NCBI RefSeq assembly: GCF_014645735.1
Contig: NZ_BMMH01000002.1
Coordinates: 744,001-808,000, forward strand
Source of the DNA: Nocardia jinanensis
GTDB taxonomy: Bacteria; Actinomycetota; Actinomycetes; Mycobacteriales; Mycobacteriaceae
Reading direction: 5' to 3'
DNA length: 64,000 nt
Below the pieces are notes generated by a model. That model saw nothing but the letters and a program-made list of their open reading frames with translations, was not told where the DNA came from and did no database searches. Each line of letters starts with the position of its first letter. Position 1 is the first letter of the stretch. Positions 2,826-37,982 of this stretch are shown here, piece by piece. The translations under genes and the position numbers were made by a program.

Positions 2826-3371
2826 ATGTCCGCACCCGCCGAGGCGACGTCCGATATCGATAAGGCCATCGAGGAGAACATCGCGAAATCCCTGGCCGAG
2901 ATCCCGCATCCGGCGCTGCCCAAAGGCACCGATATCTACGGGTCCACCAAGATCTTTCCCGACTACCGGGCCGAGGCCGGGGAAACCTATTTCACCCTCG
3001 TCCACGGCATCGCGCACGAGTCGTCGGTGAGTTTCGTGGCCGTCCTGCAGGCCACCCGGGCGCTGCGCAAGGGTTTCGAATCCGCCCTCTACTTCTACGG
3101 CCCCGGCGCGATCAACTGCATCGCCAACCGCGGTTTCCCACTCACCGGCGACAGCGGTTTCCCCGGTGAGCAGAACATCAACGACGCGCTCGCCACCTTC
3201 ATAAAAGAGGGTGGCACTGTATTCGCGTGCCGGTTCGGACTCGCCCTGCACGGCGCCCGCGAAGAAGACCTCATCGAGGGAGTCGTCCCCGCGCACCCGC
3301 TGGATGTGCAGGACGCGCTCATCCACTACGCCCGCAAGGGCGCCATCATCAATTCCACCTACCAGGTCTAG
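2826..3371 (+). CDS. MSMEG_0572/Sll0783 family nitrogen-starvation protein (NitB-type)
   Basis: 181-aa protein of the family known from Synechocystis Sll0783 and M. smegmatis MSMEG_0572, the first gene of Nit1C clusters. Biochemical function is unknown. In Synechocystis the protein is nitrogen-starvation induced and linked to polyhydroxybutyrate accumulation. Recognisable segments are ETYFTLVHGIAHESSVSF in the middle and INSTYQV at the C-terminus. The start is ATG with caggag 5-10 nt upstream. It is the first gene of a tight co-directional cluster. Confidence 0.85.
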   Translation: MSAPAEATSDIDKAIEENIAKSLAEIPHPALPKGTDIYGSTKIFPDYRAEAGETYFTLVHGIAHESSVSFVAVLQATRALRKGFESALYFYGPGAINCIANRGFPLTGDSGFPGEQNINDALATFIKEGGTVFACRFGLALHGAREEDLIEGVVPAHPLDVQDALIHYARKGAIINSTYQV

Positions 3372-4441: not shown

Positions 4442-5905
4442 ATGAGCACACCCGATACGCTGTCCGTACCGCGCTCCTGGCCGATCGGATCACCACTCTC
4501 CGCGGCGCCCGCTCCGGATCACTGTGTCCTGTCCGGATATCCATCGCCGGCGCCACCGGCGCACGGGTTCCTGATCAGGACCGCCGACGCACGGCAACTC
4601 GCCGCGTACCGCAGGCTCCGGCGGGAGAACTTCGTCGTCGAACAGCACTTGTTCGACAGCTCCGACGCCGACGATATCGACGACGACCCGCGCACGGTGG
4701 TACTGGTCGCGGTCGCCCCGGTCGGCACGGTCCTCGGTGGCGTCCGCCTCGCCCCCGCCACCACCGAGGATCTGGGCTGGTGGACCGGCAGCAGATTGGT
4801 CGTGGACCGCCACCGGCGCACCCGCGGTGTGGGCAACGCCCTGGTCCGGGCCGCATGCGCCTACGCCGAGGACACGAACGCCCTGCGCTTCGAGGCCACC
4901 GTCCAGCAGCGGCACGCGCCGATGTTCACGCACCTGGGCTGGATCCGGACCGGTGAGACCCGGATCGGCGGCGTGCCGCACACGAGAATGCGCTGGCCCA
5001 TCGATCGGATCGAACGGCTCGCACGGTCGGCCAAGGCGATGCTCGGTCCGCTGCTGCGCACCCTCGGCTCCGCGCCGATGACACTGGGCGGCCCCGGATT
5101 CCACGGTGACGACGGCGCTCCCGTGCCCGGCAGCGATCTGGTCGCGGCGTGTGATGCCATCATCCCGTCGATGGTGCAACGCGACCCCGAATGGGCCGGA
5201 TGGTGTTCGGTGCTGGTGAACCTCAACGATCTCGCGGCCATGGGCGCGCAGCCGGTCGGGTTGCTGGACTCCGTCGCTGCCCCCACCCGCTCGTCGCTGA
5301 CCCGGATCCTGCGCGGTCTCGCCCGGGCGAGCGAGATCTGGGACGTCCCGGTGCTGGGCGGGCACACGCAGCTGGGACCGGCCGCCCTCTCGGTCACGGC
5401 GCTGGGACGCACGCACCGGCCGGTGCGCGGCGGGGGAGGCAGAGCCGGGCACGAGGTGCGGCTGACCGCTGATCTCGGTGGTGGCTGGCGGCCCGGATAC
5501 CGCGGGCAACAGTGGGATTCGTCGTCACACAGGGCGGCACCGGAGCTGCGGGCCATGGGCCGGTTCGTCGCGGACACCGGACCCGCGGCAGCGAAGGATG
5601 TGAGCATGGCGGGGATCGCCGGTACAGCCGGAATGCTCGCCGAGGCGTCCGGAACAGGGGTCGAGCTGGATATCGCGCGCCTGCCCCGGCCCGACCGGGT
5701 CGCCCTCGCCGACTGGCTCACCTGCTTCCCCGGATTCGCCATGTTGACGACCGATCGCGCCGGGGCACCGATAGCCGCCACGGGACCGGCCACCTCGGCG
5801 GTGTGCGGAGTACTGACCGCAACGCCAGGGGTGCTGCTGCGCTGGCCGGACGGAACCACCACCACAGCGGTGCCCGGCACCGTCACCGGATTGGGACACT
5901 CATGA
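4442..5905 (+). CDS. Fused GNAT acetyltransferase / AIR synthase-like protein (NitE-NitF fusion)
   Basis: 487-aa two-domain protein. Residues about 40-190 are a GNAT acyltransferase with the acetyl-CoA loop RRTRGVGNALV. Residues about 200-485 resemble the ATP-binding PurM/AIR synthase fold (Sll0787 family). In cyanobacteria the two domains are separate proteins (Sll0786 and Sll0787); mycobacterial MSMEG_0567 is a comparable fusion. Substrates are unknown. The fusion suggests that acyl transfer and ATP-dependent activation act on one intermediate. ATG is 1 nt after the radical SAM stop, and the last codons overlap the nitrilase start by 4 nt. Confidence 0.85.
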   Translation: MSTPDTLSVPRSWPIGSPLSAAPAPDHCVLSGYPSPAPPAHGFLIRTADARQLAAYRRLRRENFVVEQHLFDSSDADDIDDDPRTVVLVAVAPVGTVLGGVRLAPATTEDLGWWTGSRLVVDRHRRTRGVGNALVRAACAYAEDTNALRFEATVQQRHAPMFTHLGWIRTGETRIGGVPHTRMRWPIDRIERLARSAKAMLGPLLRTLGSAPMTLGGPGFHGDDGAPVPGSDLVAACDAIIPSMVQRDPEWAGWCSVLVNLNDLAAMGAQPVGLLDSVAAPTRSSLTRILRGLARASEIWDVPVLGGHTQLGPAALSVTALGRTHRPVRGGGGRAGHEVRLTADLGGGWRPGYRGQQWDSSSHRAAPELRAMGRFVADTGPAAAKDVSMAGIAGTAGMLAEASGTGVELDIARLPRPDRVALADWLTCFPGFAMLTTDRAGAPIAATGPATSAVCGVLTATPGVLLRWPDGTTTTAVPGTVTGLGHS

Positions 5906-6825
5906 CCGAACTCACCATGTCTGTAGCCGCGGCCGAATTCGGCCGCGATATGGAACGCTGTTTCCATACTGTCGCGGATCTGATCGAACGCGCCCGCGCC
6001 CGGGGCAGCCGGCTGCTCGTCCTGCCGGAAGCCTGCCTCGGCGGGTATCTGCCCAGCCTGGGCGGCGGAACCGAATCCGAGGAAGCCAGACAGCGCCGCC
6101 TGCGAAGCCTGCCGCCCGCGCTCGGGCTCGACGGACCCGAACTGGGCCGGATCGCGGCCCTGGCCGGGGATCTCGTAATCACCCTCGGATTCTGTGAAGC
6201 CGACGGCGATATCCGCTACAACACCGCGGTAACCCTCACCGGTGACGGCATCCTGGGCTCCTACCGCAAGGTCCACCAGCCCCTCGGGGAGAACCTCTGC
6301 TACGCCGCGGGGTCGGAGTACCGCGCCTTCGACACTCCGGTCGGCCGGATGGGTATGCAGATCTGCTACGACAAGGCCTTCCCGGAAGCCGCCCGGGCCC
6401 TGGCACTCGACGGCGCGGAGATCATCACCTCGCTCTCGGCCTGGCCCACCTCCCGTACCGCCACCGCCGAACGCCTCGAGGACGACCGGTGGACCCAGCG
6501 CTTCGATATCTACGATCGCGCTCGCGCGGTGGAGAACCAGGTGGTGTGGATCGCGTCCAACCAGGCCGGCACCTTCGGCTCGCTGCGCTTCGTGTGCAGC
6601 GCCAAAATCGTCGGTCCCGGCGGGGAGGTTCTCGCGAGCACCGGCACCGAACCCGGACTCGCCACCGCGACCGTCGATATCGGGCAGGCCCTCGACGCGG
6701 CGCGCGGCGGCGGAATGTACAACCTGCGTGATCGGCGGCCCGAAGTCTACGACCGCGTCGTAGCGCGGCACGGTGTCGTCGGCCGCCCCGCGCTTCCCGG
6801 GGAACTGGCGGCGACCCATGCCTGA
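5902..6825 (+). CDS. nitC: Nit1C cluster nitrilase/carbon-nitrogen hydrolase
   Basis: 307-aa member of the nitrilase superfamily that hydrolyses C-N bonds of nitriles or amides through a thioester intermediate. The catalytic triad is intact: E43 in LPEACLGGY, K123 in SYRKVHQP and C155 in MQICYDKAF. Nit1C nitrilases are required for growth on cyanide as nitrogen source in pseudomonads, so a role in nitrile or cyanide nitrogen recovery is likely but inferred. Start ATG overlaps the upstream stop by 4 nt (ATGA). A close paralogue lacking the active residues lies two genes downstream. Confidence 0.85.
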   Translation: MTELTMSVAAAEFGRDMERCFHTVADLIERARARGSRLLVLPEACLGGYLPSLGGGTESEEARQRRLRSLPPALGLDGPELGRIAALAGDLVITLGFCEADGDIRYNTAVTLTGDGILGSYRKVHQPLGENLCYAAGSEYRAFDTPVGRMGMQICYDKAFPEAARALALDGAEIITSLSAWPTSRTATAERLEDDRWTQRFDIYDRARAVENQVVWIASNQAGTFGSLRFVCSAKIVGPGGEVLASTGTEPGLATATVDIGQALDAARGGGMYNLRDRRPEVYDRVVARHGVVGRPALPGELAATHA

Positions 6826-16850: not shown

Positions 16851-17585
16851 GTGTCCACCAAGCTGAATCAGCTCATCGCCATCGAGAAGGGCGCGAAGGC
16901 ACAGGCGACCGCCGATGTGACCGCGGCCTACCAGCGCGTGGGCAAGGCCGATCTGCTGTCGGGTATTTCGCGCACCTATCGGCCGCTGGACGATATGGGC
17001 GAGGAGTTGCCGGCGGAGTCCAAGCGGGTCCAGGTGCGGGCGGGCGAGGTGATCGCCGATGTGAAGCGCACGCTGACCCGGTTGTTCGACGTGACAGCTA
17101 CGAAGGACACCGCCAACTGCTCGGCGAAGGCCGATATCACGGTCGACGGCGTCACCATCGCCCGCGAGCTGCCGGTCACCTACCTGTTGTTCCTGGAGAA
17201 GCAGCTGAGCGAACTGAAGAAGTTCGTCGCCAAGCTGCCGACTCTGGATCCGGCCGAATCGTGGTCGTTCGACAATGTCACCGACTGCTACGCCACCCAG
17301 CCGTCGCAGACCGTGCGGACCAAGAAAGTGCCGCGTAACCACGTACTGGCCGCGGCCACCGATAAGCACCCGGCGCAGGTGGAGGTGTACCACGAGGATG
17401 TGGTGGTGGGCCGCTGGACCACCACGAAGTTCTCCGGTGCGCTGCCCGCGAAGGAGGTCGGCGACCTCACCGATCGGCTCGGCAAACTGCTCGACGCGGT
17501 ACGTATCGCCCGTGAAACGGCGAACGCGGCGCCGGTGAGCGATATCGAGCCCGGTCACGCCATTCTCGGCTACCTGTTCGGTTAG
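16851..17585 (+). CDS. Conserved actinobacterial hypothetical protein (DUF7873-like)
   Basis: 244-aa soluble protein of a family common in Streptomyces and related genera, recognised by MSTKLNQLIAIEKG at the start, SGISRTYRPLDD, VTATKDTANCSAKADI, LPTLDPAESWSFD and a YLFG C-terminus. Function unknown; no transmembrane segment or signal peptide. GTG start has gaaggaggg 7 nt upstream, which decides against the longer frame. A hairpin follows the stop. Confidence 0.8.
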   Translation: MSTKLNQLIAIEKGAKAQATADVTAAYQRVGKADLLSGISRTYRPLDDMGEELPAESKRVQVRAGEVIADVKRTLTRLFDVTATKDTANCSAKADITVDGVTIARELPVTYLLFLEKQLSELKKFVAKLPTLDPAESWSFDNVTDCYATQPSQTVRTKKVPRNHVLAAATDKHPAQVEVYHEDVVVGRWTTTKFSGALPAKEVGDLTDRLGKLLDAVRIARETANAAPVSDIEPGHAILGYLFG

Positions 17586-17598
17586 CCGGGACACGAAC

Positions 17599-17616
17599 TC
17601 CCCCTGCGAGGGGGGA
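17599..17616 (+). terminator. Hairpin after the DUF7873-like gene
   Basis: tccccct and agggggga form a 6-7 bp stem around a gcg loop, 14 nt after the stop codon. There is no T-tract, as is usual in this GC range. It separates the upstream gene from the RNA locus that follows. Confidence 0.5.
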
Positions 17617-17730
17617 TGGAGCACAATCTGAAACTGAAGTTCAAGCTCACCCGTGCGGGCGCTGCCAGGGCCTGCCGATAGATTCAGCTTCTCGCTCCAA
17701 GCTCTACAACTCCATCGATCGCTCGGCGTG

Positions 17731-17844
17731 CGGATATGCTGCGACGCACCCCCGAGATCCGGGTTCGATTCCCGGTGGCGGCTCTCCCTGCCGCTGTAGC
17801 GTAAAGGCAACGCGCGGGGTTACTCATGATGACTCGTATCCGCG
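17731..17844 (+). tRNA. Circularly permuted tRNA-like gene (3' half precedes 5' half)
   Basis: The upstream piece holds a 3' half in order: anticodon-stem strand ccccg (17751-17755), variable loop agat, T arm ccggg-ttcgatt-cccgg (17760-17776) and acceptor strand tggcggc (17777-17783). A 7-nt linker follows. Then comes a 5' half: acceptor strand gccgctg (17791-17797), T8/A9, D arm gcgt-aaaggca-acgc (17800-17814), G26 and anticodon-stem strand cgggg (17816-17820), followed by tt. The acceptor strands pair 7/7 (two G-U), the anticodon strands 5/5. Outer flanks 17731-17739 and 17836-17844 pair over 9 bp. Conserved A14, R15, G18, G19, A21, U33, T54, T55, C56, A58 and C61 are present. Joining in the anticodon loop could give ACC (Gly), CGC, AGC or ACT; U73 and the first three acceptor pairs suit Gly. 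Confidence 0.65.
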
Positions 17845-17867
17845 GATCGGCGATCACAGGTGGGGCA

Positions 17868-17941
17868 CACGGTAGCTCATCTGGTAGAGCATCGGACTGT
17901 TAATCCGACGGTAGTGGGTTCGAATCCCACTCGTTGTTCAG
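17868..17941 (+). tRNA. tRNA-Asn-like gene (anticodon GTT) with abnormal acceptor stem
   Basis: D arm (tagctcatctggtagagca), anticodon arm tcgga-ctgttaa-tccga and T arm gtggg-ttcgaat-cccac are all canonical and give anticodon GTT. The acceptor strands do not pair cleanly over 7 bp. aca+cgg pairs with tcg+tgt only if one T (17935) is bulged, as if one base were lost from the 5' strand. The discriminator is T, not the G usual for tRNA-Asn, and no full CCA is encoded (ttca). It may be a divergent second tRNA-Asn or a decaying one. Confidence 0.65.
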
Positions 17942-17974
17942 GAGGGGCCGGGAAGGGTATTCCCGGCCCCTCCG
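17942..17974 (+). terminator. Strong hairpin closing the RNA locus
   Basis: ggaggggccgggaa and ttcccggcccctcc form a perfect 14-bp stem with a gggta loop starting directly at the tRNA-Asn-like 3' end. It probably terminates the small RNA transcript. About 110 bp up to the convergent gene end at 18089 follow, with nothing else visible. Confidence 0.7.
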
Positions 17975-36341: not shown

Positions 36342-37982
36342 GTGAGCGCAACATTGCAGGCCAGCGGTCTAGCGGCCGGGCACGCCGAACGCACCCTGTT
36401 CGCCGACCTCGACTTCACCCTCGCCCCCGGCGATGTGATCGGTCTGGTGGGCGTCAACGGTGCAGGCAAATCCACCCTGTTGCGGATGCTCGCCGGCGGC
36501 GCCCCGGACGAGGGCACGATCACGCTGAGCCCGCCCGACGCCACCGTCGGCTACCTCGCTCAGGAACCCGAACGCGTCGAGGGCGAGACCGTACTCGGAT
36601 TCCTCGCTCGCCGAACCGGCGTCGCAGCCGCCCAGCAGGTCATGGACGCGGCGGCCGAACGCCTCGGCGACGGCGGCGCCGACGATTACTCCCCCGCGCT
36701 CGAACACTGGCTCGCCCTCGGCGGCGCCGACCTCGATCAGCGGGCCGAGGAGGTCGCCGCCGACCTCGGACTGACCGACAACCTGGCCGGCGGGCTGGAC
36801 ACGCCGATGACGGGCCTGTCCGGCGGACAGGCCGCCCGTGCCGGTCTCGCCTCGGTCCTGCTCTCGCGTTTCGACATCCTGCTGCTCGACGAACCCACCA
36901 ACGACCTCGACCTCGACGGACTCGAACGCCTCGAACGCTTCGTCACCGGTGTCCGGACCCCGCTGATGATCATCAGCCACGACCGGGAGTTCCTGACCCG
37001 CACCGCGAACGGCGTACTCGAACTCGACCTCGCCCAGCAGCAGGTCGGTTTCTACGACGGGGGCTACGACTCCTACCTGACAGAACGCGAGATCGCGCGC
37101 CGCCACGCCCGCGAGGCCTACGACGAATACGCAGATACCAGATCCGGTTTGGAATCCCGGGCGCAGAGGCAACGCAACTGGCTCGAACACGGTGTCCGCA
37201 ACGCGCGCCGCAAGAGCAAGAACGATTCCGACAAGGCCGGCCGCAAAATGCGCGCGGAGTCCACCGAGAAACAAGCCGCCAAAGCCCGCCAGACCCAGCG
37301 GCGTATCGAACGGCTCGACGTGGTCGAGGAGCCGCGCAAGGAATGGGACCTGCGGATGGCGATCGCGACGGCTCCGCGCAGCGGTTCCGTCGTCGCGACC
37401 GCCGGTAATGCCACTGTCACACGGGGCGATTTCACCCTCGGCCCGGTGACCACCCAGATCGAGTGGGCCGACCGCATCGTCCTGGCCGGTCCGAACGGCT
37501 CCGGCAAATCCACCCTGCTCGCCCTGCTGCTCGGCAAGCTCCGCCCTGATTCCGGCACTGCCGCACTCGGTTCGGGAGTGCACGTCGGCGAAGTCGACCA
37601 GGCGCGCGGCCTGTTCCGTGGTGACGCGACCCTCGCCGCCACCTTCGGCGCGGCGATGCCGGACTGGCCCGATGCCGAAGTGCGTACCCTGCTGGCCAAA
37701 TTCGGCCTGCGCGGCCCACACGTCAACCGCGCCTGCGACACCTTGTCTCCCGGGGAGCGCACCCGCGCCGCGCTCGCCCTGCTCCAGGCTCGCGGCGTGA
37801 ACCTGCTCGTCCTCGACGAGCCGACCAACCACCTGGATCTGCCCGCTATCGAACAGCTCGAGCAGGCCGTCGAATCCTTCACCGGCACACTCCTGCTGGT
37901 CACCCACGACCGCCGCATGCTGGACTCCGTGCGCGCGACCCGCCGCTGGCATATGTCCGGCGGACAGCTCACCGAGGAGTAA
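36342..37982 (+). CDS. ABC-F family ATP-binding protein
   Basis: 546 aa, two ATP-binding domains without membrane helices. Domain 1 has Walker A GVNGAGKST and LLLDEPTNDLDL. Domain 2 has GPNGSGKST and LVLDEPTNHLDL. A charged linker (about 250-340) with many Arg/Lys residues forms the arm that inserts into the ribosome in characterised members. ABC-F proteins tune translation or protect ribosomes from antibiotics; which applies here cannot be told. GTG start. A 13-bp hairpin follows the stop. Confidence 0.85.
   Translation: MSATLQASGLAAGHAERTLFADLDFTLAPGDVIGLVGVNGAGKSTLLRMLAGGAPDEGTITLSPPDATVGYLAQEPERVEGETVLGFLARRTGVAAAQQVMDAAAERLGDGGADDYSPALEHWLALGGADLDQRAEEVAADLGLTDNLAGGLDTPMTGLSGGQAARAGLASVLLSRFDILLLDEPTNDLDLDGLERLERFVTGVRTPLMIISHDREFLTRTANGVLELDLAQQQVGFYDGGYDSYLTEREIARRHAREAYDEYADTRSGLESRAQRQRNWLEHGVRNARRKSKNDSDKAGRKMRAESTEKQAAKARQTQRRIERLDVVEEPRKEWDLRMAIATAPRSGSVVATAGNATVTRGDFTLGPVTTQIEWADRIVLAGPNGSGKSTLLALLLGKLRPDSGTAALGSGVHVGEVDQARGLFRGDATLAATFGAAMPDWPDAEVRTLLAKFGLRGPHVNRACDTLSPGERTRAALALLQARGVNLLVLDEPTNHLDLPAIEQLEQAVESFTGTLLLVTHDRRMLDSVRATRRWHMSGGQLTEE

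Follow-up and report, generated by a model that had tools for sequence, protein, structure and literature searches.

A permuted tRNA-like arm in Nocardia as part of a conserved multi-arm RNA adjoining a DUF7873 gene

The permuted tRNA-like arm considered here (m2), which lies in a 64-kb window (the whole stretch of Nocardia DNA that was analysed), is the second tRNA-like arm of an RNA of approximately 350 nt situated behind a DUF7873 gene, and is no lone tRNA gene. Sequence comparison provides good support for identifying this molecule as a conserved multi-arm tRNA-mimic RNA that forms a cassette with DUF7873. It is widespread in actinobacteria and many phages and has apparently gone undescribed: a literature search under the name DUF7873 found no paper, and a search of titles and abstract starts found none describing the DUF7873-linked RNA.

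Reading of the sequence together with a minimum free energy (MFE) fold identifies in m2 a complete set of tRNA parts in which the 3' half precedes the 5' half (Table 1), and the permuted tRNA architecture claimed by a first-pass annotation of this DNA is thereby borne out, all parts being found in the permuted order. The helices that it had described are present, but its positions were one base too high, and the strands as it had printed them fail to pair; at corrected coordinates its 7/7 acceptor pairing with two G-U pairs and its 5/5 anticodon stem both hold, whilst the pairing of the outer flanks, put by it at 9 bp, extends to 10 bp in the MFE fold. The m2 linker of the window has U(-1) and C(-2), and CCA is absent from it. 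In a scan of both strands of the 64 kb for the module (linker of at most 20 nt, acceptor 7/7), m2 was the sole match on the + strand, where the chance level is a mean of 0.01 per strand (100 first-order Markov shuffles). One minus-strand match, at window position 36940 with a 19-nt linker and a 7/7 acceptor, is perhaps a chance occurrence.

Table 1. Positions of the DUF7873 gene and of the elements of the adjoining RNA, in window coordinates
Feature	Position	Strand	Detail or basis
DUF7873 (PF25283) gene	16851..17585	+	E 8.3e-106
5' GC hairpin CCCCC/GGGGG, ahead of RNA core	17600..17614	+	sequence; similar in relatives by eye
Stem A	17618..17698	+	GGAGC 17618-17622 with GCUCC 17694-17698, by eye
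YUNARR hexamer repeats, enclosed by stem A	about 17628-17651	+	
Permuted tRNA-like arm m2, including outer flank helix	17729..17844	+	fold, Rfam, covariation
m2 outer flank helix	17729-17738 with 17835-17844		10 bp in MFE fold
m2 anticodon-stem strands	17750-17754 with 17815-17819		CCCCG with CGGGG, 5/5
m2 T arm	17759-17775	+	
m2 acceptor strands	17776-17782 with 17790-17796		3' strand UGGCGGC, 5' strand GCCGCUG; 7/7, two G-U
m2 linker between acceptor strands	17783..17789	+	UCUCCCU (U73, then CUCCCU)
m2 D stem	17799-17802 with 17810-17813		
3' core strand	17820..17866	+	in relatives, RNAalifold pairs its counterpart with the stretch lying between stem A and m2
m3, normal-order tRNA-like arm	17867..17939	+	read by ARAGORN as tRNA-Asn GTT (17869-17939); acceptor end weak, CCA absent
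GC-rich terminal hairpin, likely transcript end	17941..17973	+	counterpart covaries in 84 bacterial loci

Among 150 genomes of the genus, 31 contain a sequence resembling m2 at E <= 0.01, which in 17 of them extends over about 80-149 nt (the window's own genome included). Across these 17 Nocardia orthologues the T, acceptor, D and anticodon helices are paired in 100% of cells; the flank helix is paired in 73.5%, a figure lowered because four rows (L020-L023) look shifted by one, and five of its ten pairs are changed on both sides. Comparison of the sequences thus confirms the predicted permuted tRNA-like fold as one that is conserved with compensatory changes. Loss of the pairings in homologous loci was one of the outcomes that the first-pass annotation had named as refuting its idea, and the pairings were found to be kept.

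The arm is embedded in a larger unit, for which the usual order of elements, read by eye, is hairpin, stem A with YUNARR repeats, a permuted arm (m1), core, m2, core, an optional third arm (m3) and terminal hairpin. The window's clade has a plain stem in place of the m1 of its relatives. Stem A shows parallel changes in L155 (GGGACA/UGUCCC) and L159 (GGGGU/ACCCC), as seen by eye with no formal count, and the placing of the window's 3' core strand is likewise a correspondence drawn by eye, the window's clade being outside the alignment of 84 loci described below. The YUNARR hexamers were treated as a putative RNA repeat. A coding reading of them, as an alternation of Leu with Lys/Arg, is plausible in bacteria; phage loci such as L173 and L155 have no in-frame start by eye, and this reading was not adopted.

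To assess covariation beyond the window's clade, 84 nonredundant bacterial loci, taken from 104 outside that clade and each carrying at least one arm, were aligned with MAFFT and folded with RNAalifold. The resulting consensus recovers m2, its anticodon stem, three core helices and the terminal hairpin. Of the core helices the outermost hardly varies and the remaining ones carry compensatory changes, and a single acceptor pair is AU in 23 loci, GC in 22, CG in 20 and UG in 18. Missing from this 84-locus consensus are stem A and the greater part of m1. A further set comprised 64 diverse m2 arms; their T, acceptor and D stems are paired in 99.6% of cells, with 277 double-change cells compared with 72.9 (sd 6.1) after shuffling; these arms were pre-selected for 7/7 acceptor pairing, and the 84-locus alignment is for that reason the less biased test of covariation.

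The window's DUF7873 gene probably starts at the GTG at 16851, the longest open reading frame running from 16752, and its product scores 353.6 bits against a Pfam cut-off of 27, which places it within the family. A DUF7873 gene is found just upstream in 16 of the 17 orthologous RNA loci, the exception being L023, where a DUF7873 match is absent. With the window's genome counted in both sets, DUF7873 occurs in 62 of 148 genomes of the genus and in 7 of 396 of the phylum. Relatives were confirmed in at least 458 stretches of bacterial genomes and in 228 predicted viral contigs, of which the best 80 of each were taken on, and tblastn identified 73 phage records with DUF7873, whose hosts are Gordonia, Arthrobacter, Rhodococcus, Rhizobium, Klebsiella, Serratia, Vibrio and cyanobacteria; the cassette loci include Nocardia, Streptomyces, Actinomadura and phages. 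The 600 nt downstream of DUF7873 were then scanned for arms in a set of 241 loci, of which 221 contained the gene according to tblastn and 218 passed the criteria (at least 80% cover of DUF7873 and at least 400 nt downstream). A permuted arm is present downstream in 206 of these 218 loci, as against 10/218 upstream and 2/218 in shuffles, and 101 have two or more; counted by distinct sequence, 181/191 have at least one arm and 95/191 at least two. A single arm was found in each of four distant phage loci, namely L236 (Klebsiella), L237 (Vibrio), L238 (Rhizobium) and L239 (cyanophage). Twelve loci were missed by the scanner: L049 and L059 gain an arm if the D-loop GG is not required, and in L155 one is visible by eye, whilst in 10/218 an arm is absent under the relaxed scan too. 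No conserved third gene emerged from the 152 loci compared (1,695 crude open reading frames, DUF7873 and its antisense frame aside), as no other cluster was found in more than nine of them. RtcB, in the window's genome, is on another contig. In L055 (G149:C1:7680205-7680441, 7682906-7683631), matches to the arm model lie about 2.5 kb from a stop-containing DUF7873 frame, further downstream, and the cassette of that genome seems to be broken or pulled apart.

A structure model of DUF7873 derived from 17 sequences was poor, and one derived from 65 sequences (pLDDT 93.8) was used in its stead. The fold search found no PDB match at E <= 0.001; the best VIA-align result (Z 7.5 over 69 residues) is within the range of unrelated folds, and the best BFVD match is an uncharacterised phage protein (E 2.4e-3, TMq 0.45). 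A sequence relative in the PDB was likewise not found, and these null results do not amount to a new fold.

Signs of tRNA-like maturation were sought in the linkers, with N73 and CCA counted in 241 distinct arms with 7/7 acceptors (103 viral, 138 bacterial), linker ends counted in the 232 arms left after stricter duplicate removal, and the labels m1 and m2 assigned by script from the shape and position of the D arm. N73 is A in 100/114 m1 arms, and in the 127 m2 arms is U (90) or G (31); N74 is C in 94/114 m1 and 123/127 m2 arms. CCA immediately follows N73 in 44/103 viral and 22/138 bacterial arms, compared with 32/1,780 and 24/787, respectively, at other linker offsets and with encoded CCA in 102/430 of the normal tRNA genes in the same viral loci. 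Within viral loci the CCA status of m1 tends to match that of m2 (p 0.014), both having CCA in 10 loci and neither in 15, with 11 discordant; arm CCA does not track the CCA of the contig's tRNAs (6/8 versus 18/28, p 0.69). At the linker end, U(-1) is found in 40/57 viral m2, 25/45 viral m1, 33/67 bacterial m2 and 9/63 bacterial m1 arms, and in 212/430 normal viral tRNA genes. The dinucleotide A(-2)U(-1), which PMC9433436 gives as optimal for E. coli RNase P, occurs in 24/57, 15/45, 4/67 and 4/63 of the same classes in that order and in 109/430 of the normal genes, its counts inside the linkers being 67/900, 38/387, 0/35 and 7/215. G(-2)U(-1), among the slowest leaders according to that paper (PMC9433436), is rare in normal viral tRNA genes (6/430) and is present in 15/57 viral m2, 5/45 viral m1, 16/67 bacterial m2 and 2/63 bacterial m1 arms; the anti-determinant GG ends the linker in 18/63 bacterial m1 arms. 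On these linker-end counts the viral arms are the most similar to RNase P substrates, the bacterial m2 arms are less so and the bacterial m1 arms are not. Such patterns suggest that the linkers may be removed by tRNA enzymes, with G(-2)U(-1), the bacterial m1 arms, the small share of bacterial arms with CCA, the lack of CCA in the window's linker and the mismatch between arm and contig CCA as counter-signs, and lend some support to the idea that cutting would leave pieces held together by base pairing, as in two-piece tmRNA. RNase P acts poorly on G(-2)U(-1) leaders, and normal tRNA genes seldom have them; their frequency among the arms therefore weakens a reading based on cleavage and strengthens a rival one in which the arms resemble YrlA.

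YrlA, as outlined in PMC8394870, is an RNA of 90-150 nt in which the basal stem holds Rsr and PNPase is bound by the tRNA-like domain, and it is also known from mycobacteriophages (Chen 2014, as cited in PMC12282133). Like the DUF7873-linked RNA, YrlA with Rsr/Ro60 has a permuted T/acceptor/D module on a basal stem and a partner protein gene nearby, and m2 possesses the permuted module with D, T and acceptor arms by which YrlA is recognised. It is therefore possible, though in our estimation rather unlikely, that the RNA is a divergent YrlA relative in which closed, uncut arms tether DUF7873, replacing Rsr, to a ribonuclease such as PNPase, and in which CCA and U(-1) are relics of tRNA ancestry or loop preferences; the occurrence of G(-2)U(-1) and short linkers in many arms favours a loop over an RNase P leader, and within the genus a TROVE/Rsr gene stands beside a YrlA-like RNA with the same type of arm (L268). 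The Rfam scores can be read in either direction: the window arm matches full-length YrlA (RF02553) at 22.9 bits (E 0.21) and 6 of 12 relatives searched do so at 23.7-42.2 bits, but every one of these scores is below the gathering score of 69, and no family reached threshold on the arms of the loci searched. Against the proposal, a search for Rsr/Ro60 (TROVE, PF05731) across the 70 contigs of the window's genome, whose completeness is estimated at 100%, gave 0 matches at E <= 0.001, and the neighbour of the RNA is DUF7873 rather than TROVE; the unit is of some 350 nt with a larger core, and at least two arms lie within 600 nt in 95/191 distinct loci, whereas YrlA is described as having 90-150 nt and a single tRNA-like domain (PMC8394870). 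N73-CCA, often encoded in viral members, is in addition an enrichment unexpected for a capped loop. Accordingly we keep the DUF7873-linked RNA apart from YrlA, yet its function may be like that of YrlA.

More conventional explanations of m2 were also weighed. The first-pass annotation had taken it for an ordinary permuted tRNA gene, with ligated ends among the options and tRNA-Gly as the suggested product, and the complete canonical arms, in permuted cloverleaf order, count in favour of this, as does U73, which we take to be Gly-like. The anticodon stem, however, opens and runs on into the covarying core and the flank helix, which argues against joining of the ends, and relatives often carry two arms per RNA, closely linked to DUF7873 as in 16 of the 17 orthologues; that annotation had found the arm and missed DUF7873, the rest of the RNA and the place of the adjoining tRNA-Asn in the unit. 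Precedent for permuted tRNA genes exists in algae and archaea, where, as PMC3978253 describes, the 3' half also comes first with a linker at the acceptor and CCA is encoded in the archaeal cases; there tRNA splicing joins the outer ends, whereas those of the DUF7873-linked arm run on into the rest of a larger molecule. It is unlikely that the arm gives a translating tRNA-Gly, and an ordinary permuted gene that yields one through end joining is highly improbable. Scarcely more credible is a tmRNA relative, namely a permuted two-piece tmRNA with the YUNARR repeats (Leu-Lys/Arg codons) as its tag reading frame. The topology equals the gene form of permuted tmRNA, in which, in the account given in PMC11915505, tRNA enzymes remove the linker between the acceptor strands and the pieces stay base-paired, and the repeats are codon-like in bacterial loci; however, no consistent in-frame start or stop surrounds them by eye (L173, L155), and the Rfam matches listed for the window locus (one lower-scoring clan match left out) and 12 relatives include none to tmRNA or permuted tmRNA at E <= 1, weak tmRNA-model matches being confined to the DUF7873-less arms L269 and L272. 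Two-piece tmRNA (RF04321, RF01849-RF01851) shares the permuted order and the linker between acceptor strands, and differs from the DUF7873-linked RNA in the latter's two tRNA-like arms, intact D stems and DUF7873 linkage; its linker is removed, whereas in the DUF7873-linked RNA the sequence signs of cutting point both ways. That tRNA genes leave fragments, and that the arm model also matches ordinary tandem tRNAs (391/396 genomes have some match, L270 being a case), could be cited for two unrelated truncated tRNA remnants or for chance, but double changes conserved across bacteria and phages, and the shuffle expectation of 0.01, leave this with practically no probability.

The third arm, m3, is a tRNA-like arm in normal order. 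In 15 loci of the window's clade ARAGORN reads eight different anticodons in it (14 full triplets and one short loop), and in the alignment of these copies variation is concentrated in the anticodon loop and the outer acceptor ends, with very little in the D stem, the T arm or the anticodon stem. Four of the 15 copies (L009, L010, L013, L018) are CCA-ended, the window's copy not among them, and a normal-order tRNA follows the last arm in 42/181 distinct loci, some of which may be neighbouring tRNA genes of phage clusters; as few loci possess m3 and those four copies do end in CCA, it could be a tRNA on its way to decay. Phage tRNAs that vary in the anticodon loop have been proposed to evade host anticodon nucleases (PMC10264068), and m3 has in common with these a tRNA body and a changing anticodon loop, but is embedded in a larger conserved unit and usually has a weak acceptor end. 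Of eight phage regions read, seven have annotated tRNA genes, three of them as dense clusters. A second site with a tRNA-Asn-like anticodon is present in the window's genome. In L158, L162, L173 and L183 a bare hairpin resembling an anticodon arm, with no full m3, precedes the terminal hairpin, and its triplets differ (by eye).

With moderate confidence, we favour an account in which a large noncoding RNA with two to three tRNA-like arms and DUF7873 together form a cassette, its product being a bound and processed particle that occupies tRNA enzymes, with m3 as a decoy. DUF7873 would bind the RNA, and tRNA-maturation enzymes would treat the permuted arms as pre-tRNAs; the linkers would be cut, at least in many phage members, and, if tRNA enzymes do the cutting, N73 would be spared. 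The predicted product is an RNA in several pieces that have CCA-type ends and stay together through base pairing, which as a particle would occupy tRNA-handling enzymes. Where present, m3 would be a tRNA decoy open to change, and the conflict between phage and host makes nucleases that target anticodons its most likely opponents. The decoy role for tRNA enzymes is proposed because of the phage tRNA clusters and the changing anticodon, and the particle is putatively a tRNA-mimic ribonucleoprotein, perhaps a decoy. A more specific version is doubtful: in it both arms are cut to give a three-piece ribonucleoprotein with two CCA-ended, possibly chargeable acceptors, bound by DUF7873 and equipped in certain lineages with an anticodon arm that can be exchanged, which acts as a tRNA weapon or shield of phage or host. 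Were this version true, it would constitute a new ribonucleoprotein class common to phages and hosts. The DUF7873-linked RNA represents tRNA mimicry by circular permutation outside Ro60/Y RNA and offers a concrete test case for the maturation of multi-piece RNAs.

Related arms were also encountered elsewhere. The arm model R1 is unspecific genome-wide, with some match in 148/148 and 391/396 genomes, and was left out of counting for that reason; eight of its stronger places (L267-L274) were inspected. L267, L268 and L274 proved YrlA-like, TROVE when tested being present in L268 alone; L271 and L272 are orphan arms, L273 is a DUF7873 RNA and L270 comprises two ordinary tandem tRNA-Asn genes. Several strong arm matches in related genomes that lack a DUF7873 match prove to be YrlA-like RNAs. 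One related genome has, in L268, a YrlA-like RNA and a TROVE/Rsr gene close together (4525-4586 and 5137-6741), and the classical Y RNA system thus occurs in the same genus as the window. L269 (about 2953-3277, minus strand), from a genome without a DUF7873 match, has two YrlA-like modules separated by about 240 nt, and the linker of one of them has ACCA. The window's own genome contains another permuted tRNA-like RNA (G000:C46:11061-11149; L001; L271 5061-5149), which has the genome's best YrlA score (41.3 bits); a GC hairpin comes after it, and neither DUF7873 nor TROVE is known at that place. The orphan permuted arm of L272, in another genome, is similar to it.

The DUF7873-linked RNA may lie behind certain questionable tRNA annotations, the window's 'tRNA-Asn' among them. 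In Klebsiella phage vB_KpM_FBKp24 (L236 5012-5091) a 'tRNA-Sup-TTA' is annotated about where m3 would be expected, and may be a misannotation. In Gordonia phage Phendrix (L241 1075-1603), an unannotated tmRNA match of 89 bits lies between the annotated Asn and Arg tRNAs of that phage's tRNA cluster.
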